64,000 nucleotides of DNA, taken from NCBI GenBank assembly GCA_016785955.1, contig JAEUWH010000087.1:1-64000 (forward strand), given 5' to 3'. A program made the position numbers and the translations under genes. This DNA is from Pseudobdellovibrionaceae bacterium. GTDB lineage: Bacteria; Bdellovibrionota; Bdellovibrionia; Bdellovibrionales; Bdellovibrionaceae. Below the pieces are notes generated by a model that ran no database searches, was not told where the DNA came from, and saw only the letters and a list, made by a program, of their open reading frames with translations. Shown one piece after another: positions 21,937 to 32,255 of this stretch. The number at the start of each line of letters is the position of its first letter. The stretch's first letter is position 1.

Positions 21937-22134
21937 GGAATTCCTTATATTTTCAGGTTCTGTATGTAAAAATATCAGTCAGTAGAATAATCGGTCAACG
22001 AGGTTCGACATTGGTCTGGCTTGGTTTTTTCAGATAACTGTCTCAGTGTGAGAACTTTCTTTTTTACGCTCATGTTCTAATAAAAAATGTTCGATAATAA
22101 ATTCAAGCACAATAATAAATGCGCTGGAGGATTT

Positions 22135-22323
22135 ATGAAGCTTACTAAAAAGAACAAAAATAAATTTTTAAAAAATGAAAAAGGGCAAGGAATGGTCGAG
22201 TACATTTTGTTACTTGTCGTGATCATCGGCCTGGTACTTGCGTTCAAACCAAAAGTTGAGGCTTATTTCACTAAGGCAACAGATAAAGTTGGCTCTGGTA
22301 TGGACGGAGTTATCGGTAACTAA
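22135..22323 (+). CDS. flp: Flp-family type IVb pilin
   Basis: A 62-residue pilin. The basic leader KLTKKNKNKFLKNEKGQG ends at a class III cleavage site, after which MVEYILLLVVIIGLVLAF provides the N-terminal helix with Glu at position +4/+5 and tyrosine next to it, a hallmark of Flp pilins. Mature length of about 45 residues is typical. The start is the ATG after GGAGG; a longer in-frame start lacks a ribosome binding site. It opens the Tad operon and should be the major pilus subunit, exported and assembled by the genes downstream. Confidence 0.92.
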   Translation: MKLTKKNKNKFLKNEKGQGMVEYILLLVVIIGLVLAFKPKVEAYFTKATDKVGSGMDGVIGN

Positions 22324-22938: not shown

Positions 22939-23574
22939 ATGACGATACAAAAAAACCTGAAAAATAGAAGCGGCTTTTTGACTATCGAATTTGCGATGGC
23001 TTTGTTGATGTCTGTGGGACTAAGTGTAATATTTTTCGTTCTGGCATTCAGTCTGTCGTCGGCATTTGTGGCTCAATACATCGGCTATTCGGTGGGTCAT
23101 ATATATGCTGGAGGTAATATCAATGTTCAAGAACAGGAAAAATTAGCAAGCCAGAAATTTAGAAAAATTATGGCGACGCCGGGAATAGGAAAGTTATTTT
23201 CTCAGGGATGGTTTACGTTGGTTCTGGATTCTAATGCATTTCGCAGTGGTCAGAACGGGCAGATATTCGAGGAATATGGTGGCAGTAGGGATGGGCAAAG
23301 ACTGGCAGCGACAGGCGTACGCTTGGTTTATACGACAAAGTTATTTAACCTAAATTTAGGTCCCTTGGGCAGCACGAACCCAGATGACGAGGCGTTTTCT
23401 GCCAAAATCACGGGGTTTATGATTCGCAATCCCACGCAAAAAGAATGCGAAGATTACATGAAAGTAGAGACTCGTCATCAGGCACTGATTCAGATCGATA
23501 GTCGTTTTAGTCAGTATGATTCAACTCCGGGAAGTAATCAAAAATACTTTCCAATGGAGGATAACGGATGTTGA
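22939..23574 (+). CDS. TadE/TadF-like pseudopilin, 211 aa
   Basis: Leader MTIQKNLKNRSGFLTIEFAMALL has the GFxxxE cleavage motif; one hydrophobic helix (about 10-38) is followed by a periplasmic domain of about 170 residues. TadE and TadF pseudopilins are processed like the pilin and are needed for pilus assembly and surface adhesion. It ends overlapping the next gene by 7 bases. The sequence beyond the helix is not recognisable to me. Confidence 0.7.
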   Translation: MTIQKNLKNRSGFLTIEFAMALLMSVGLSVIFFVLAFSLSSAFVAQYIGYSVGHIYAGGNINVQEQEKLASQKFRKIMATPGIGKLFSQGWFTLVLDSNAFRSGQNGQIFEEYGGSRDGQRLAATGVRLVYTTKLFNLNLGPLGSTNPDDEAFSAKITGFMIRNPTQKECEDYMKVETRHQALIQIDSRFSQYDSTPGSNQKYFPMEDNGC

Positions 23575-24095
23575 AAAACAATCGCGGTATGGCCGCACTA
23601 GAAGTCGTAGGTATTTTTGCAGTCATCATGATTTTGTTTAATTTTAGTCTTGGGTTTTATGGAGTCATCCAGACAGGAATTTTAAAAAGTATGGCCGCAC
23701 GCAATTATGCATTTGAAACCTACCGCTTTCGCAGCAATTTAGATTTCTTCTGGCGTAATGGTTCGGATACGACCGGATTGTCGCGATATCGTTTATTTGG
23801 AAATCGTTTCCATGGCGTGACCTCGGAAAACTCTGTCGCTAGCGATCATTGGGCCGCTACGGCCCGTCCGATATCGTTTGTCAGTTCCTTTGGTGGCATG
23901 GGTGAGGACGGTGTTGACTACAGTCGAACTCCAGGCAGCGATGGAAACGCGCAATTACATAACAAACTTGTCTATGAAATCCGTGATGATGGAAAACCAT
24001 TGCTAGATGAAAAAGATAAATACAAAGCGTTTCCAGTATGGATTAAATCTGTCTACGGAATTTGTATCAACGCGAAGTGTGCTCCGATAAAGTAA
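23568..24095 (+). CDS. Second TadE/TadF-like pseudopilin, 175 aa
   Basis: Starts in an overlap with the previous gene, with GGAGG seven bases before the ATG. NNRGMAALEVVGIFAVIMILF is a pseudopilin leader and helix with Glu at +5; the periplasmic part follows, with two cysteines near the end (GICINAKCAP) that may form a disulfide. Part of the Tad operon. About 235 bp separates it from cpaB, in which I see only a short inverted repeat (24186-24200). Confidence 0.7.
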   Translation: MLKNNRGMAALEVVGIFAVIMILFNFSLGFYGVIQTGILKSMAARNYAFETYRFRSNLDFFWRNGSDTTGLSRYRLFGNRFHGVTSENSVASDHWAATARPISFVSSFGGMGEDGVDYSRTPGSDGNAQLHNKLVYEIRDDGKPLLDEKDKYKAFPVWIKSVYGICINAKCAPIK

Positions 24096-24330: not shown

Positions 24331-25218
24331 ATGGGAAATGAATCAAAAAATCTGTGGATTTCAATTTTTGCCGGTGCGTTTGCCGCCTTCATGATTTACA
24401 GCTATGCACAAGAACAGAGGAAAGCAATTAAAGAGCAGCTGGGTGCTCGTAAAGTCGTTGTCGTCGCGAAGGAAGACATTCCTGAAATGACAACGATCTA
24501 TGATTCTATGTTGGAAACCAAATCGGTACCGATTGATTTCGTACCGGATGGATTTTATTCTAATGTTCAGGAAATTGTTGGAAATGTTTCGGCAGTTCCG
24601 TTCAAAAAAGGCCAACCTGTTCTGAGGAATCACTTGTATTCGCCTGGCGCTGATACGGGAATTGCCTTGCAAGTCGCACCTTCTAAACGCGCGCTTGCGA
24701 TTCCAATTGATGAAGTGCGTGGTGTTGCTAAACTTATACGTCCGGGTGACCGTGTCGATATTTTTGTCGCTTTGGATGTGGGTAAAGGGGCTAACTTAAG
24801 ACGCGAAAGTTTTTTATTGATGCAAAATGTAGTGGTTCTGGCGGCGGGTGTCTCGGTTCAAAACAACATTCCTCGTCTAATTGAATACGATTCAACTGGA
24901 AAAAATGCTATACAAACCTCTCTCACCGGCGACACAAAATATAGTACAATCACAATTGAGGCTGAGATTAAAGAAGCTCAGGATTTGGTGTATATTCTAT
25001 CCACGTCGCCAGGAAATATTTATCTGACTTTAAGAAATCCTACCGATGGAACTCTGAAAGCCAGGTTGCCTAGTTCTACAGCCGAATCAATCTTAGCGCG
25101 GGCTACCGAGGGTAGTACAGCCGTTGCACCTGTTCCACAGCCACAGTCGAATCCTTTTACGGGAGGAATTCTTCCGCCCAGTGGAAACAGACCCAGCGGA
25201 ACCGGTGGAGGTCGTTAA
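24331..25218 (+). CDS. cpaB: Flp pilus assembly protein CpaB/RcpC
   Basis: A 295-residue periplasmic protein with an N-terminal membrane anchor (about 8-25), an SAF domain (about 40-110, VVVVAKEDIPEMTTIYDSM), and the RcpC region with GVAKLIRPGDRVDIFVALDVG. The C-terminus is proline-rich and disordered. CpaB joins the secretin to the inner-membrane machinery and is thought to bind peptidoglycan. Three bases before the secretin-gene region; preceded by CACGAGG. Confidence 0.88.
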   Translation: MGNESKNLWISIFAGAFAAFMIYSYAQEQRKAIKEQLGARKVVVVAKEDIPEMTTIYDSMLETKSVPIDFVPDGFYSNVQEIVGNVSAVPFKKGQPVLRNHLYSPGADTGIALQVAPSKRALAIPIDEVRGVAKLIRPGDRVDIFVALDVGKGANLRRESFLLMQNVVVLAAGVSVQNNIPRLIEYDSTGKNAIQTSLTGDTKYSTITIEAEIKEAQDLVYILSTSPGNIYLTLRNPTDGTLKARLPSSTAESILARATEGSTAVAPVPQPQSNPFTGGILPPSGNRPSGTGGGR

Positions 25219-25241
25219 AAGTGCTTAAGGGGGATACTCAA

Positions 25242-26834
25242 ATGGCGATTCTTAAAAATCTTATAGTTGTAACTCTTCTACTTTCGTCGCAAGTCGCTTT
25301 GACCCAAGAGCCTGGTGTCGAGGGCGGTGATGCTCCGGCGGCTGATGAAGCTAACACTGAAAATGAAGACAAATTAGCGGCGGATCAATCGACTAATGAT
25401 GTGTTTACCACCGATGGTAATGATTTGGCGGTTTCGTATCGACAAGCAGAGTACATCAACTTAACATTTGGTATTGAAGAGGATAAAAAACTTCCTCCCC
25501 TGCCAAAGAAAATTCGTTATGATGGCACCTATAAGAAATACGTAAAAATTGAATTTAATAAAAAACTAAATCTTTTTCGTTTTAAACCTACAGGTGAAGG
25601 ATTTGGGACACTGGTGATTTACGATGCTAAAAACAACAAAAAGGTTGTCGAGTATCGCATTAACGTCAGAAAAAATTCGTTGGACAAAGTAGTCATCGAA
25701 TTAAAAGGCATGCTGGCGGATATCGACGGCATCGCGATTAAAATTATTAATAACAAAGTAGTGATTGACGGTCAGGTATTGACGCCAAAAGATTTAATGC
25801 GCATTAAAAATGTGATTCGTCAATTTGGTGACAAAGTCGACAGTATCGTCAGCGTGAATCCAATGGCTTACAGCAAGATCTGCCAGTTCATCATGAGTGA
25901 TATTAATAATCCAGAAATTGAATGTCGCGCACGCCACGAGAAAATTATTCTTCAAGGCCAAGTCAACTCGGGCGAAGAAAAAGTCCAAGCGGAAATCATT
26001 GCAAAAATTTACATGCCGCCCGTGTATGTGGATCCAGCGTGCTCAGAGGGCTCAATTCGTTGTCCCAAGCCTGTGAACGACGGGGTCATTAATATGATCA
26101 CTGTCAAAGAGGGCGCTCCACCGCCACCAAAGAAGTTAGTGCAGATGAATATTCACTATGTGGAATTGAAAAAAGACTATTCAAAATCATTTCGGTTTGA
26201 ATGGGCGCCGGTGATCTCGGATCAATCGGGTGTTCAAGCTTCGGCCGGTGATCAAAATGGTGGAATTGTAACTTCACTGACGGCCGTGGTAAGAAATTTA
26301 TTGCCAAAGTTGAATCATGCCAAGACTCATGGTCATGCACGCGTACTAGAGAGCACTTCGTTCATGGTTCGTGATGGTGAAAAAGGTTCGATTTCTCAGA
26401 CCATCGACGAACCATACTCGGTTATTGGGCAAAACGGCAATCAAGGAACGGCATTCACGCCCACGGGCCTGAAAGCGTCGATCACGCCGACGATCAGTGG
26501 GGACAAGTCTGGGACTGTCGAGATGAAACTGGAATTTCAAGTCAGCCAAAAAGTGGGCGTGGTCGGTGGAAGCCCAGTGGTTTCAAAGAACGAACTGATC
26601 ACTGTCATCGCCGTTCGTGACCGTCAAAGCGCGGCTGTGGGTGGATTAATCAAGAACTCTACGGATACAAATTATAATCGTGATCCTGCTAAGGAAGCCT
26701 TGTTCAACGCTTTAGCGGCCAAGGGTACATCCCGAAATCAAAATCAATTCGTGGTGTTTGTCACACCCAAGATCATTACCTCGGCCAGCGCGGATTCGGA
26801 AAAAATCAGATCCAAGTTCAAAATGCCTTACTAA
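25242..26834 (+). CDS. cpaC: Tad pilus secretin CpaC/RcpA
   Basis: A 530-residue outer-membrane secretin. Signal peptide (about 1-22) is followed by an acidic disordered stretch, an N-terminal periplasmic domain (about 60-150), a BON-like domain (about 155-200) and the secretin core: GEKGSISQTIDEPYSVIG, ASITPTISGDKSGTVEMKLEFQV and the C-terminal VRDRQSAAVGGLIKNSTDTNYNRDP and FVVFVTPKIIT. The ring forms the exit pore for the pilus. The ATG after AGGGGG is preferred to an upstream GTG. Confidence 0.9.
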   Translation: MAILKNLIVVTLLLSSQVALTQEPGVEGGDAPAADEANTENEDKLAADQSTNDVFTTDGNDLAVSYRQAEYINLTFGIEEDKKLPPLPKKIRYDGTYKKYVKIEFNKKLNLFRFKPTGEGFGTLVIYDAKNNKKVVEYRINVRKNSLDKVVIELKGMLADIDGIAIKIINNKVVIDGQVLTPKDLMRIKNVIRQFGDKVDSIVSVNPMAYSKICQFIMSDINNPEIECRARHEKIILQGQVNSGEEKVQAEIIAKIYMPPVYVDPACSEGSIRCPKPVNDGVINMITVKEGAPPPPKKLVQMNIHYVELKKDYSKSFRFEWAPVISDQSGVQASAGDQNGGIVTSLTAVVRNLLPKLNHAKTHGHARVLESTSFMVRDGEKGSISQTIDEPYSVIGQNGNQGTAFTPTGLKASITPTISGDKSGTVEMKLEFQVSQKVGVVGGSPVVSKNELITVIAVRDRQSAAVGGLIKNSTDTNYNRDPAKEALFNALAAKGTSRNQNQFVVFVTPKIITSASADSEKIRSKFKMPY

Positions 26835-27016: not shown

Positions 27017-27105
27017 GTGTAATATGTAAACCAAACTTTGGGCGGGTTGTCTGATTTTGAAAATTGACCGATATGGTAGGTGGAGAATTTTATGAGGAAC
27101 ATACC

Positions 27106-29304
27106 GTGGCTTTAAATCCAAATTGTACTTTAATAGGTGTCATTGGCGGAAAAGGTGGAGTGGGTAAAAGTATTTTTGCGGCCAATTTTTCATTGGCTTT
27201 GATGAATGAACTTCGAACCCAGGTGTTGCTGATAGACGGAGACTCGAAATCCATCGGTGATCAAAATTTTTTGCTGGGACAAAAGCCAGTTAAGACGTTG
27301 CGGGAAATTGCAAATTTGAATACGGGTTTGTCATCGACGCCATTGAATCAATTGGTCAACACGCACCCGTCTGGTTTAGCCTATCTGGGCGCGGTTCGAG
27401 GTCCTGAGGAAAAGTTGGATGTGAACCCGGAAGCCTTGATGCGACAGATTGAGTTCTTCAGCCGTCAATTTAAATTTATTGTGGTCGACTTGGGGAATGA
27501 CATCGGTCCTTTGCAAAACGCATTTCTTTTAGAAGCGACGGCGTGTTATATCATCACCACACCAGAAGTTTTAGTCGTGGCGCAGACTCAGCGTTTAGTG
27601 AACGATATGTTATCGGCGACGTTTCCTCGAGACATGTTTCAATTGGTGATTAATAAAGTCAGTCCTTCGGGAATTTCTCCTCAAGATATTAGCAATTCAT
27701 TGCGATTGCCACCGATGGGTTTGATACCGCAAGATGAAATCACGTCGCAGGCCTCGATTCAAAAACAGACACCGTTTGTGATTTCTCAGCCCAAAGCGCC
27801 CATTACAAACAGCTATTATGATATTGTTCGTCGTATCACGGGCGGAACTTTGCAAAGGCTGAAAGGATTGGCCAAGCCCAAACCAGTGGCCGCCAGTGTG
27901 GAATCCAGCGGCGGTGCCGGTGCGGGTTTATCGGCGGCAGCGTTGCAAGGCTTGGATCCGCAAGTGCAAATGCGTCTGCGCGTGCATTCGGAACTGCTGC
28001 GCTTGCCCGAGTTATCGCGAATGATGAAAGACTTCACCGCGGATGAGTCTAAACAAAATGAAATCAAAGACCGTATTAAGCGCGAGATCACGCAAATTGT
28101 GGATCGCGAAGCTCCCGAGTTGGCGCGAGACAAGCGACAAGTGCTGATCGAAGATGTTTTAAAAGAAGCGCTGGGGTTAGGTCCATTAGAGGATTTGCTG
28201 GCGGATAAAGATATTTCCGAGATCATGATTAACGGTTACAAAAAAATATTTGTTGAAAAAGGTGGTAAGCTGACCTGGGCAAAAGAAATGCAATTCACGT
28301 CGAACGATCATCTTCGTCGTATTATCGAACGAATTGTGACGCCACTGGGTCGTCAGATCAACAATGCGAGTCCGATGGTGGATGCACGTTTGAAAGACGG
28401 CAGCCGGGTGAACGCGATTATTGAGCCTTGCTCGATTGATGGTCCGGCAGTGACAATTCGAAAATTTAAAAAAGGTGGCGTCAGTCCAGAAAAGTACGTC
28501 GATTATGGATCGATGACCAAAAACATGATCGATTTTCTGCGCATTTGTGTTGAGAACGGCATGAACGTGGTTATCTCGGGTGGTACCGGCTCGGGTAAAA
28601 CGACATTGCTCAATATGCTCTCGTCATTTATCCCCGTTTCAGATCGTATCGTCACGGTCGAGGATGCGGCCGAGTTACAAATGCAACAAGATCATGTGGT
28701 TCGATTAGAAACGCGTCCGACGTCGATGGAGGGATCCCATGCCATCACGATTCGTGATTTGATTAAGAATGCGTTACGTATGCGTCCTGATCGAATTGTG
28801 GTTGGGGAATGTCGTGATGGCGCGGCTTTGGATATGTTGCAGGCGATGAATACGGGTCATGATGGTTCGATGACGACGACCCATGCGAATAACGCAAAAG
28901 AATGTATCTCCCGCTTAGAAACTTTATGTATGATGGCCGGTATGGATCTTCCCGTGCGCGCGATTCGTGAACAGATCGCCAGTGCGGTACATATTATCGT
29001 TCAGGTTTCCCGTTTATCTGATGGCTCTAGGAAAATCATGTCGATCACGGAAGTCGATGGCATTCAAGGCGAAGCCGTGACGTTGGCGCCGATTTTTATT
29101 TTTAAAGAAACCGGTTATGATGCTAAGAAGAAAATTTTGGGACAATTCCAACCTACCGGTTACATTCCCAAGCTGATCCAAAAACTAGCTGCGAAAAATG
29201 TTATTGTTCCGAAGGAGTTATTTTTAGCGGACTCGGTGAAAGCCGCTGCGTCCACAACTGGTCCATCGGCCAATCCACAAACTCCGGCGAAAAAGATAGG
29301 ATAG
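27106..29304 (+). CDS. TadZ-TadA (CpaE-CpaF) fusion ATPase
   Basis: A 732-residue protein joins two Tad components. Residues 1-270 form a ParA/MinD-type ATPase with deviant Walker A GGKGGVGKS (signature lysines K16 and K21), DGDSKSIGDQN and a VDLGNDIG segment, like CpaE/TadZ but without an N-terminal receiver-like domain. A linker rich in alanine/glycine follows. From about 310 to the end is the secretion ATPase CpaF/TadA, with Walker A GGTGSGKTT near residue 490, Asp-box and GECRDGAALDMLQAMNTGHDGSM. TadA powers pilus extension; TadZ localises the complex. The GTG with GAGGA seven bases upstream is the best start. Confidence 0.85.
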   Translation: MALNPNCTLIGVIGGKGGVGKSIFAANFSLALMNELRTQVLLIDGDSKSIGDQNFLLGQKPVKTLREIANLNTGLSSTPLNQLVNTHPSGLAYLGAVRGPEEKLDVNPEALMRQIEFFSRQFKFIVVDLGNDIGPLQNAFLLEATACYIITTPEVLVVAQTQRLVNDMLSATFPRDMFQLVINKVSPSGISPQDISNSLRLPPMGLIPQDEITSQASIQKQTPFVISQPKAPITNSYYDIVRRITGGTLQRLKGLAKPKPVAASVESSGGAGAGLSAAALQGLDPQVQMRLRVHSELLRLPELSRMMKDFTADESKQNEIKDRIKREITQIVDREAPELARDKRQVLIEDVLKEALGLGPLEDLLADKDISEIMINGYKKIFVEKGGKLTWAKEMQFTSNDHLRRIIERIVTPLGRQINNASPMVDARLKDGSRVNAIIEPCSIDGPAVTIRKFKKGGVSPEKYVDYGSMTKNMIDFLRICVENGMNVVISGGTGSGKTTLLNMLSSFIPVSDRIVTVEDAAELQMQQDHVVRLETRPTSMEGSHAITIRDLIKNALRMRPDRIVVGECRDGAALDMLQAMNTGHDGSMTTTHANNAKECISRLETLCMMAGMDLPVRAIREQIASAVHIIVQVSRLSDGSRKIMSITEVDGIQGEAVTLAPIFIFKETGYDAKKKILGQFQPTGYIPKLIQKLAAKNVIVPKELFLADSVKAAASTTGPSANPQTPAKKIG

Positions 29305-29310
29305 ATCGTA

Positions 29311-30186
29311 ATGGATTTTTTGTTCAAACCAGTTCCTTTCATTATTCTAACGACACTGGCCATTGCGGTGTGCATTTATGGTTTGAGCGGACTGCTGTTC
29401 CCATTTTTTGAAAAGAAGTCGGCCTCTAATCGGAATATCATTTTACGTTACTATGAATTAATGGGTGTTCAAACCAACCCCAAAAAAGTAACTTACTTGT
29501 TGTTTGGATTAAGCTTTGGTTTGGGTGGCGTGTTTTTTTTCCTGTTTTGGCCGGACGTGATTGCGGGCTTGATGTTTGGGTGTTGTGTCGGCATCGCCGG
29601 TTGGAACTTGCCGGTGTTGTTAGTGAAATCAACGTATGAAAGTCGATGCAACCGATTTGTCGAACAAATGGTGGACTCGTTGACGATCATGGCTAATGGA
29701 ATCAAGACCGGATCAAACCCTGTGCAATCGATGCAGCGAGTGACCGAGATCATGAACAACCCGATTCGCCAAGAATTTGAAAAAGTCATTGGGGATACGC
29801 AACTGGGGTCCAGTTTTGAAGAGGCGCTGAACAAACTGGGCGAGCGAGTGCCTAGACCCGACGTGCAAATGTTCGTGACCGCGATTAATATTTTAAAAGA
29901 AACCGGTGGTAACCTGGCCGAGACCTTCGAGACTATTGTCTTTGTTATCCGTGAGAGGCAAAAGATTGAAAAAAAAATCGAAGCCATCACATCCAAAGGG
30001 GTCATGCAAGGTATTATCGTGATGCTGGTCCCGTTTCTGATATTCGTTGTTTTTCTTTTTATGGATCCTGCGTTTATCCGACCAATGTACACTACGACGA
30101 TGGGCTATATTTTGCTCTTTGTGATGCTGGTCTTGCAGGTAATTGGTGGAATTTGGATCAAAAAAATTGTTACAATAAAGGTATAA
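29311..30186 (+). CDS. tadB: Tad secretion platform protein TadB
   Basis: A 291-residue inner-membrane protein of the type II/IV secretion F (GspF-like) family. Membrane helices at about 10-30, 62-100 and two more at about 225-290 bracket a cytoplasmic part holding FVEQMVDSLTIMANGIKTG and EKVIGDTQLGSSFEEAL. TadB with TadC forms the platform on which TadA acts. No TadC follows directly; the next gene is a YD-repeat protein, so TadC may be elsewhere or fused functionally. Six bases after the ATPase stop. Confidence 0.88.
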   Translation: MDFLFKPVPFIILTTLAIAVCIYGLSGLLFPFFEKKSASNRNIILRYYELMGVQTNPKKVTYLLFGLSFGLGGVFFFLFWPDVIAGLMFGCCVGIAGWNLPVLLVKSTYESRCNRFVEQMVDSLTIMANGIKTGSNPVQSMQRVTEIMNNPIRQEFEKVIGDTQLGSSFEEALNKLGERVPRPDVQMFVTAINILKETGGNLAETFETIVFVIRERQKIEKKIEAITSKGVMQGIIVMLVPFLIFVVFLFMDPAFIRPMYTTTMGYILLFVMLVLQVIGGIWIKKIVTIKV

Positions 30187-30207: not shown

Positions 30208-31869
30208 ATGAAAAGCTCTCTCATCCTCACTTTCCTAGCGTTGGTATCGTTTCAGGCGCATGCCATTGTCGACATGAAAAATGCGAATTATTCTAATACG
30301 TGGGTTGATTTTGAACTGGATGGCACCGGGTATGATTTGAAATTGGAAAGAACATATAACAGTCGTACACTGTTCAATGGCATTTTCGGTTTTGGGTGGT
30401 GTACAAATTTTGAAACCAAGTTGCAAATCACTTCGGAAGGTAATTTAAAGGTTCGCGAGTGCGGCGCAGGGGCCGAAGTCGTGTTTTCTCCGCGTGAAGT
30501 GGGAAAACAGGAAGTTGAAAAAGTTGTGGATTTCATTATCGGGAAAATGAAGGCCGAGAAAATTGCGGGTCGTAACGAAGATTTTTATAAACGCAAAAAG
30601 GAAGAATTATTTGAGTACGATGACACGCGAACAAACGTGGCCCGACAGTATGGATGGGCTCCTAAAGTCGTTGATGGTACCAAGTTCATGGCTAATGGAA
30701 AAGAAGTCGAAAACATCATTTTTAAGACAACCTATTACGAGCGCACCCTACCCGACGGCTCAAAACAGCGCTTTAATCCGCAAGGTCAAATGACTTACAT
30801 GTATGATAAAAACGGCAATATGCTGAAATTGGATTATGATAAGGCCGGCTTATTGAAGGAAGTGGCCGATACGAATTCACGCAAGCTGACCTTTAAATAC
30901 TATTCTGCCAATAAAAAAGTGCAGCAAATTTTCGGTCCTAATGGGTTGACCGCGGAATATCAGTACATAAATACGGATGATCTTCACTTTTCGAAAGATT
31001 CAAAAAAATACGCGACAAAATATCTTTATGATGATCTTCATAATTTAACGAAAGTCGTTTTTACGGATAACTCGGTTATAAATATAAAATATGATCAGAA
31101 CAACGATTGGGTCATTGGGTTTACGGATCGTGATAAATGCGTCGAGAATTACACGTATGAGGTCGACAAGAAAGATCCTAAAGGTCATTTCTGGTCGACG
31201 GTCAAAAAAACCTGCGGCAAAGAAGTGGTGGCGCAAAGCCGATATGAATTCTGGCACAAGCAAAAACCTAATGGAGAGTACGTACTATCGCGAGTGTACT
31301 CTAAGGAAAACGACAACGAGACGGATATTTCTTATCATGAAACATTTGGTCGTCCATTATCCATCAAGAAAAATGGCGATAAATTTTCGTATGAGTATAC
31401 GCCCGATGGTTTGGTGAAAACCAAACTGACGGCCAATAACAAACTTATTTTCGAGTACAATAATTCTTTAAAAAAGCCATCTAAGGTGACGGTGGAAATA
31501 ATGAATGAAAAGGGCCGAAAAGTTTCTACCAAATACACGGTTTTCCAGTACGACAACAAGGGAAATCTGAACTTTGCGGAAAATTCTGATGGACAGAAAA
31601 TCGAACTTTCGTATGACAATCGCGGACGTATTACAAAGATTGTAGATCAGGCTAAGAAAGTGGTTAAGCTAGAGTACGAAGAAAAATATAATAAACCAGT
31701 GACGATTTCACGGCCAGGTTTGGGCTCAGTGAAGGTTTCCTATAAAACAAATGGTGATATCAATAAAGTCGACAGTAAAGAGGGACCCAGCGTTGCTATG
31801 CAGGTGGCCAGTACGTTTAACACGTTACTAGATATTATCGCGCCCGCTACTCAGGAATTATTTTTATAG
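30208..31869 (+). CDS. Secreted YD-repeat (RHS-like) protein, hit-locus Bd0109-like
   Basis: A 553-residue exported protein with signal peptide (about 1-19) and a segment typical of RHS N-termini (SNTWVDFELDGTGYDLKLERTYNSR, DUF6531-like). It then carries multiple YD repeats, for example YDKNGNMLKLDYDKAG, YDDLHNLTKVVFTDN, YEYTPDGLVKTKLTA and YDNRGRITKIVDQAKK. The repeats should form a beta-shell. There is no C-terminal toxin domain. It follows tadB directly and precedes a small secreted protein, the order I recall for the Bdellovibrio hit locus where Bd0109 is the partner of Bd0108. Likely envelope-associated and linked to pilus function. Confidence 0.75.
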   Translation: MKSSLILTFLALVSFQAHAIVDMKNANYSNTWVDFELDGTGYDLKLERTYNSRTLFNGIFGFGWCTNFETKLQITSEGNLKVRECGAGAEVVFSPREVGKQEVEKVVDFIIGKMKAEKIAGRNEDFYKRKKEELFEYDDTRTNVARQYGWAPKVVDGTKFMANGKEVENIIFKTTYYERTLPDGSKQRFNPQGQMTYMYDKNGNMLKLDYDKAGLLKEVADTNSRKLTFKYYSANKKVQQIFGPNGLTAEYQYINTDDLHFSKDSKKYATKYLYDDLHNLTKVVFTDNSVINIKYDQNNDWVIGFTDRDKCVENYTYEVDKKDPKGHFWSTVKKTCGKEVVAQSRYEFWHKQKPNGEYVLSRVYSKENDNETDISYHETFGRPLSIKKNGDKFSYEYTPDGLVKTKLTANNKLIFEYNNSLKKPSKVTVEIMNEKGRKVSTKYTVFQYDNKGNLNFAENSDGQKIELSYDNRGRITKIVDQAKKVVKLEYEEKYNKPVTISRPGLGSVKVSYKTNGDINKVDSKEGPSVAMQVASTFNTLLDIIAPATQELFL

Positions 31870-31880
31870 GAGTTATGAAA

Positions 31881-32255
31881 ATGAAATATTTAATTTCAAT
31901 CATCTTGGTTTTGGCAGTATTTAACAGCTTTGCGCAGACGGAAAAGGAAGAGACGTCAACTCCGGCACCAGAATCAGCAACAGCAAAGGGCGGTATCAAA
32001 ATTGAGGATATCAAAAGAACCGCAACTCCAGGACAAGGTGGAGTACCTAAATCAAAACCTCGTACTGAGCCACAAGGAACACTCGATGATTGTATTACGC
32101 GAGATGCGAAAGGGCGTTGTTTACAAAGCACTCAAGGACGCGCCACCTCACATGCTGAGAATTTTACTCCAGCCAACGCTCCGGCCGTACCACCGACAAC
32201 ACCTGCGGGTTCGACGGACGGTGGAAATGCCGAAAGAAAACCTAAAGAAAGATAA
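31881..32255 (+). CDS. Small secreted disordered protein, hit (Bd0108-like)
   Basis: A 124-residue exported protein: signal peptide MKYLISIILVLAVFNSFAQ, then a low-complexity region rich in T, P, A, S, G and K with a single pair of cysteines in DDCITRDAKGRCLQ. The mature part should be disordered, as reported for Bd0108. The ATG with GGAG eight bases upstream is preferred to an ATG two codons earlier. In B. bacteriovorus, mutations in this gene permit prey-independent growth. Assignment rests on position after TadB and the YD-repeat gene, on size and on composition, not on sequence search. Confidence 0.6.
   Translation: MKYLISIILVLAVFNSFAQTEKEETSTPAPESATAKGGIKIEDIKRTATPGQGGVPKSKPRTEPQGTLDDCITRDAKGRCLQSTQGRATSHAENFTPANAPAVPPTTPAGSTDGGNAERKPKER

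Follow-up and report, generated by a model that had tools for sequence, protein, structure and literature searches.

The gene at 27106-29304 (+) of the window (the whole 64,000-nucleotide stretch of Pseudobdellovibrionaceae DNA analysed here) raises the question of whether a Tad positioner (TadZ) and a Tad secretion motor (TadA) are made as one polypeptide, and what this would imply for the placement of the motor. Inspection of the locus indicated a single intact open reading frame encoding a ParA domain, a linker and a TadA/CpaF motor. The open frame spans 27064-29304 and would give 746 aa if counted from a TTG codon. The GTG at 27106 is the likelier start, as a GAGGA lies upstream and the conserved block of the protein begins there. 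The features of the gene are:

27094..27098 (+), Shine-Dalgarno-like GAGGA, 7 bases before the GTG at 27106 (direct reading)
27106..29304 (+), fused TadZ-TadA ATPase, 732 aa, GTG start (Pfam, NCBIfam, AlphaFold and relatives)
27106..27870 (+), TadZ/CpaE-type ParA/MinD domain, residues 1-255, no receiver domain ahead
27145..27171 (+), deviant Walker A GGKGGVGKS, residues 14-22, both lysines present
27880..27954 (+), disordered linker, residues 259-283, Ala/Gly/Ser/Pro-rich, pLDDT below 50 at residues 260-278
27955..29235 (+), TadA/CpaF motor, residues 284-710, beginning with the three-helix NTD1
28579..28602 (+), motor Walker A GGTGSGKT, residues 492-499 (sequence)

A preliminary description of this DNA had proposed a fusion of the TadZ and TadA ATPases, with a deviant Walker A at the start, a second Walker A near residue 490, an alanine/glycine linker between the domains and no CpaE receiver-like domain. 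The single ORF, the Pfam matches (CbiA at residues 11-221 and T2SSE at 356-642) and fold matches to both partners bear out the fusion. Both Walker motifs were located, at residues 14-22 and 492-499, the stretch between the domains is indeed rich in Ala and Gly, together with Ser and Pro, and disordered, and nothing receiver-like precedes the ParA domain by sequence or Pfam. NCBIfam MinD/CpaE-type models matched residues 8-249 under their curated cut-offs. TIGR03819 (TadA family) matched residues 325-648 with 305.8 bits, under its 373-bit curated cut-off; this is a hypothetical-equivalog model with a tight cut-off, and the placement in TadA relies instead on the CpaF profile, the fold and the tree. 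A profile search of the PDB returned CpaF (4.8e-167) and the ParA-family structure 3ea0 (1.4e-33), and the protein is 68% identical to that of B. bacteriovorus kdesi (L032).

We used an AlphaFold model based on an alignment of 36 rows, separate CpaE and TadA proteins among them (mean pLDDT 85.7, pTM 0.54); an earlier model based on 15 close relatives (mean pLDDT 51.5) was set aside. The model displayed two folded parts, with disorder in the linker at residues 260-278 and in the tail from residue 712. Residues 284-710 superposed on CpaF structures 9e24 (Z 38, rmsd 4.4, 419 aligned residues) and 8rjf (Z 38, rmsd 3.4, 417 aligned residues), and residues 4-245 on 3ea0 (Z 29.2), followed by MinD and FleN at about Z 28. 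The relative placement of TadZ and TadA is undefined in the model (pTM 0.54), with no inter-domain interface visible. Between profile matches, the linker has a median length of 34 residues (range 0-53 in 65 ORFs, the value of 0 belonging to G1362). Hydrophobic moments downstream of the ParA domain spoke neither for nor against a membrane helix of the amphipathic, MinD-like kind, their means being alike in 63 fused proteins (0.45) and 26 others (0.44).

The TadA part has the full NTD1-NTD2-motor architecture. It resembles Caulobacter crescentus CpaF (9e24, 8rjf, 8rkd) in the three-helix NTD1, NTD2, the motor and the catalytic residues, with 43% identity over 417-420 aligned residues. K498, E519, D520, E568 and H593 do not vary among 25 rows picked from across the phylum, none of them from the small-genome lineage f15; we take these residues to be the Walker A, the Asp/Glu box, the Walker B glutamate and the His box. 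The alignment with CpaF begins at CpaF residue 80, so that the TadZ domain and the linker occupy the place of NTD0. In CpaF, this place is filled by residues 1-79, which are predicted to be disordered in the available text of PMC11300603, whereas the fused protein has a whole TadZ domain plus linker there. Three more TadA-like ATPases are encoded in the same genome (L107:8050-9300, L108:5256-6371 and L109:7129-8217); no TadZ was found around them in the fetched stretches of 13-16 kb.

NCBIfam MinD and CpaE-like models scored alike, and under their cut-offs, for the window protein and for separate CpaE. A profile built from 25 fused N-terminal domains gave 68-142 bits with the separate CpaE proteins examined and at most 56 bits with the ParA-like proteins of the same genome (FlhG-like 56, Soj-like 50). 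In a TadZ-domain tree of 58 rows, which did not include MinD proper, all 37 fused rows were on one side of a branch with an SH-aLRT of 96; the other side held separate CpaE together with three ParA-like proteins of the same genome (FlhG-like, Soj-like and one more). Since the family models are ambiguous, it is from the profile scores and the domain tree that we call the N-terminal domain a receiver-less TadZ domain, with CpaE as its nearest kin, and not a canonical CpaE. It shares with TadZ/CpaE the ParA/MinD fold, this position in the tree and a gene place next to cpaC and tadA, but it differs in having no receiver, in keeping both Walker A lysines and in being a covalent part of the motor. 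The ParA domain of separate CpaE begins about 135-250 residues into the open frame, and 2 of the 3 that were scanned gave a Response_reg match. The fused TadZ domain sits in a Tad gene cluster beside the secretin, with tadA in the same chain. No second stand-alone TadZ was found in the genome, where the next best TadZ-like match had an E value of 6e-4; the other ParA-like ORFs look like Mrp, FlhG, Soj and others.

The deviant Walker A announced in the preliminary description is present, with one correction: both of its lysines are kept, unlike in most separate CpaE. Of 64 unique fused domains, 61 have the motif K..xGK[ST] with both lysines; it is missing from one f15 row (L110) and from an RGGVGRT pair of another phylum (G1159 and G1223). 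Four further f15 rows (L111-L113 and L172), which scored below the limit of the motif-count search, have a plain GK[ST] loop and lack the signature lysine motif, bringing the count to 61/68. Among separate CpaE, the motif with its P-loop lysine was kept in 3/25, all from Dietzia; the raw count was 4/27 before L058 (a fragment) and L118 (a fused gene truncated at a contig end) were dropped, and the 3/25 leaves out CpaE from a later examination of 38 matches. K16, K21, D46 and D128 of the ParA part are invariant in the same 25-row alignment.

In lineage f15 (L110-L113, L172), the fusion is retained although the ParA domain is shortened and the deviant Walker A signature is gone. Judged from these alignments, the fusion outlives the ParA motif in some lines. 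As f15 lost the motif yet kept the fusion, and two other proteins carry RGGVGRT, ATP-driven pairing is not essential everywhere. In one f15 genome, a long frame seemed to add TadB as a third partner; it crosses undetermined bases and was not counted as evidence.

The fused gene is part of a locus with an Flp pilin (identified by motif only), CpaB, secretin, TadA and TadB:

22087..22323 (+), Flp-type pilin, 78 aa, with the motif GQGMVEYILLLV (by motif, as in PMC5430801)
22939..24095 (+), two minor-pilin candidates (22939-23574 and 23568-24095) with an N-terminal hydrophobic segment and no Pfam or NCBIfam match
24331..25218 (+), cpaB/RcpC (TIGR03177 above its cut-off)
25221..26834 (+), cpaC/RcpA-type secretin (Secretin PF00263; NCBIfam secretin models below cut-off)
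29311..30186 (+), tadB-type platform protein (T2SSF PF00482)
30208..31869 (+), RHS/YD-repeat protein, positional counterpart of Bd0109 (gene order)
31875..32255 (+), small protein with a signal-like N-terminus, positional counterpart of the hit protein Bd0108 (position, not family)

TadC and TadV were not found among the ORFs scanned in 18.9-34.5 kb, where small ORFs were scanned in part. The order cpaB-cpaC-TadZA-tadB-RHS was found in 19/20 Bdellovibrionota loci; the remaining one (L121) lies on a contig that stops shortly after tadB. As far as the accessible parts of PMC3818213 and PMC5430801 describe the locus, gene order makes the fused gene the counterpart of HD100 bd0111. In PMC3818213, which also describes Bd0109, the series from cpaB to RHS is bd0113-bd0109, followed by hit bd0108, and RT-PCR linked bd0108-bd0109, bd0109-bd0110 and bd0110-bd0111. 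In strain 109J, insertions in the counterparts of bd0112 and bd0115 impair predation (PMC2277423), and the Bd0111 protein has been detected by mass spectrometry (PMC5430801). Bd0111 is named TadA in PMC3818213, PMC2277423, PMC4267844 and PMC5430801. We found no mention of its TadZ part in the accessible text of the first three, and the words TadZ and CpaE are absent from the main text of the fourth. The same gene and locus thus carry the label TadA alone in these sources. No published description of a TadZ-TadA fusion was found in a search that did not reach the E. rectale TadZ structure paper or the papers on TadZ of A. actinomycetemcomitans.

A frameshift or an artificial merge of two genes was considered and is ruled out. 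The gene was full length and without internal stop in 39/39 genomes of the order sample, its own included, and matches extend over the class and the phylum. Within the class, 134/143 genomes match at E<=1e-100, and 126 full, uninterrupted spans were counted from the listing. The other 8 are cut at contig ends (G087, G070, G099, G115, G108 and G082) or have frame breaks, within the TadA part in G131 and within the ParA part in G084, neither of them at the domain border. Within the phylum, 340/368 genomes match at E<=1e-100 (230/234 of those of good quality), a level that the TadA part alone may reach, as in G290 and G300. Spans were seen for 225 of the 340 matched genomes, including 71 representatives outside the class and 20 further rows of the phylum listing, and the other 115 were scored by E value only. 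The full span was present in 54 of the 71 chosen representatives. Eight of the remaining 17 are cut at contig edges (G298, G342, G305, G360, G332, G223, G322 and G207), six belong to f15 (G287, G288, G289, G291, G292 and G290), and the rest are G356, with a break inside TadA, G293 and G300. G290, G293 and G300 gave TadA-type matches only.

Twenty-eight genomes gave no match at 1e-100; a related ATPase of some kind is present in 25, and several show fragments of the fused gene ending at contig ends; in G261, which is of good quality, the two parts lie on two contigs. In G102, G121 and G359 (at least 90% completeness), no fused gene was found, only paralogues. An intact TadZ beside an intact TadA in place of the fusion was found in none of the 225 matched genomes with spans and 28 unmatched genomes. 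The nearest to a border split is G341, a decayed copy in an incomplete genome, which has lost the linker and the last part of the ParA domain through a deletion and a frame change. The fusion is therefore supported as a general trait of Bdellovibrionota and not a merge artefact. B. bacteriovorus kdesi has a TadZ segment at a second place (L058:7521-8462), 66% identical to residues 116-255; no TadA was found at that locus, and default blastn gave no match to the main fused locus.

The preliminary description had asked whether the fusion is clade-specific. It is general in Bdellovibrionota, but not confined to them, because five clear cases were found elsewhere. In 20 further loci (L038-L057) from Acidobacteriota, Actinomycetota, Planctomycetota, Pseudomonadota, Myxococcota, Nitrospinota and a Desulfuromonadaceae assembly, cpaE and cpaF are separate or cpaF stands alone; Acidobacteriota, Planctomycetota and Actinomycetota were sampled through these loci only. 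In L038, L039, L040 and L042, cpaE and cpaF are in one frame, parted only by a stop. Phylum-level searches, with spans read from the listing, gave no uninterrupted full span in the phylum of a Myxococcota assembly (195 genomes, 135 matched, E limit 1e-120) or in that of a Parvularculaceae assembly of the Pseudomonadota group (378 genomes, 106 matched, 1e-165); every full span listed in either is interrupted by a stop. Among 375 genomes of the Desulfuromonadaceae assembly's phylum, 3 have an uninterrupted fusion (G1035, G1159 and G1223; 66 matched, 1e-165). In the class of G1035 (63 genomes, 1e-190), both domains are in one ORF in G1035, G1357 and G1362, the last being listed as TadA-only though its ORF has both domains. 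Pfam confirmed the two domains in G1357 and G1362, and G1363 is cut by a contig start. One other phylum thus holds five clear fusions and a cut one, and outside Bdellovibrionota the fusion is sporadic.

Examination of 38 more listed matches with long open frames (28 from the Myxococcota group, 6 from the Parvularculaceae phylum and 4 from the Desulfuromonadaceae phylum) revealed no two-domain ORF; ten of these matches lie outside the Myxococcota group, and nine of the ten have TadZ as an ORF of its own. The fusions of G1035, G1159 and G1223 are accompanied by cpaB-, cpaC- and tadB-like tblastn matches in the usual order. For G1035, Pfam confirmed RcpC, a secretin and two T2SSF genes, and for G1159 a secretin; G1035 and G1223 additionally carry a separate CpaE-TadA pair. 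Among the best 5000 plasmid records, 4 cover 80% of the query, and the one inspected holds two separate genes.

In a TadA tree of 84 rows, retained from 112 after dropping near copies, the 37 fused rows of Bdellovibrionota formed one clade (SH-aLRT 99). Its sister is the FHA-TadA of the Myxococcota group (80), and a wider group (88) adds the fusions from the other phylum together with a Bdellovibrionota paralogue on a long branch. When long branches, paralogues and further copies were removed, leaving 54 rows, the fused Bdellovibrionota clade (98) and the wider group (95) were recovered again, the inner order of the latter being unresolved. Holding all fused TadA rows together was not rejected (p-AU 0.65), the constrained tree being 6 log units above the free one. 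The TadA and TadZ trees therefore favour, without proving it, a single fusion, which was probably ancient and followed by transfer or loss.

The sister proteins carry another control domain in the same N-terminal slot. Pfam detected FHA at the TadA N-terminus in 6/6 Myxococcota-group ORFs and in the one Nitrospinota ORF scanned; FHA-TadA loci are L101-L106 and L149-L153. No TadZ was found near the Myxococcota-group FHA-TadA in 19-kb stretches (4/4 loci) or in stretches of 4-9 kb (28/28 more). KilF of the Kil system also has an N-terminal FHA domain, according to the accessible text of PMC8460266. These proteins and the Bdellovibrionota fusion are alike in bearing an extra control domain on the TadA N-terminus and are near neighbours in the TadA trees; the domain is FHA in the former and TadZ in the latter.

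We propose, with a probability of roughly 0.6, that the fused protein is a Tad motor bearing a TadZ/CpaE positioner on its N-terminus, with six TadZ domains per ring and a covalent tie replacing the receivers. In the Caulobacter model, as given in the accessible text of PMC13170226, six CpaE dimers surround a CpaF hexamer, CpaE shifts to the CpaF base on piliation, and the receiver (REC) domains are thought to link neighbouring CpaE dimers. The TadA part of the fusion is predicted to assemble as a hexamer; since TadA would do so, each ring would bear six built-in TadZ domains, which could form three ATP-bound pairs of the ParA type, in contrast to the six dimers modelled in Caulobacter. The pairs would bind the membrane or a polar landmark, and the ring would be held or released at the pilus base, the motor arriving already attached to its positioner. 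The receiver would be dispensable here because the covalent tie would do its work in ring formation. What the analysis establishes is the architecture, its distribution, the retained motifs and the gene order; the coupling of positioning to motor action, and the co-location at the pole expected in the preliminary description, are inferred. A fixed 1:1 TadZ:TadA ratio would follow from the sequence only if the protein is neither cut nor internally started.

The ParA domain might instead be mainly a switch on the motor, ATP pairing ring neighbours and gating extension or retraction, for example on prey contact. This appears unlikely, although several observations are in its favour. The retention of both Walker A lysines in most fused domains, in contrast to the few separate CpaE that keep them, points to genuine ATP turnover; FlhG/FleN regulators are, besides MinD, among the close structural relatives, and the Myxococcota group has a regulatory FHA domain on the TadA N-terminus. 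However, the domain tree puts the ParA domain with CpaE/TadZ and away from the genome's own FlhG-like protein, no partner or sensor is known, and f15 has done without the motif while keeping the fusion. Somewhat less probable still is an essentially neutral operon fusion, in which the stop between adjacent tadZ and tadA was lost and the product works like separate proteins. The frequent adjacency of cpaE and cpaF in other phyla, sometimes in the same frame with a single stop between them, agrees with such an origin, as does the poorly conserved linker, with a mean majority-residue share of 0.28 compared with 0.52 for TadZ and 0.77 for the TadA core. Against it, the absence of the receiver and the retention of the P-loop lysine go together with the fusion, and the border-split survey described above yielded no intact pair.

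It is very improbable that the fusion exists at the gene level only, with two proteins produced in vivo by linker proteolysis or an internal start. The linker is disordered, and ATG and GTG codons lie just before or in the start of the TadA part, but no good ribosome-binding site was seen by eye before them. A broader version of the positioner-bearing motor is considerably more tentative than the proposal itself. It would see the TadA N-terminus as a socket for swappable control domains. The Bdellovibrionota ancestor would have received TadZ with a working ParA switch, its receiver shed, giving a self-positioning motor in which three ATP-gated ParA pairs couple prey-pole anchoring to extension and retraction; the Myxococcota group would have received FHA, and the separate Caulobacter-type CpaE ring would be gone in both.

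In Bdellovibrio, the locus of Bd0111 connects pili with predation and with the change to growth independent of prey. Should the protein be one chain throughout the phylum, the ratio of positioner to motor would be 1:1, compared with the 2:1 modelled in Caulobacter, and a receiver ring would be unneeded. The role of TadZ for the motor could then be tested via point changes in a single gene. Natural variants exist, with intact, Walker-altered and shortened TadZ domains and with FHA in the place of TadZ.

The positional counterpart of Bd0108 matched only L023 among the loci compared, and weakly (37%, E 3e-6), so that this type of regulator of prey independence seems to be fast-evolving. The RHS/YD protein lies beside tadB in 19/20 Bdellovibrionota loci, including distant families, and was unmatched in three fused loci of the other phylum; it may be a phylum-specific Tad component.
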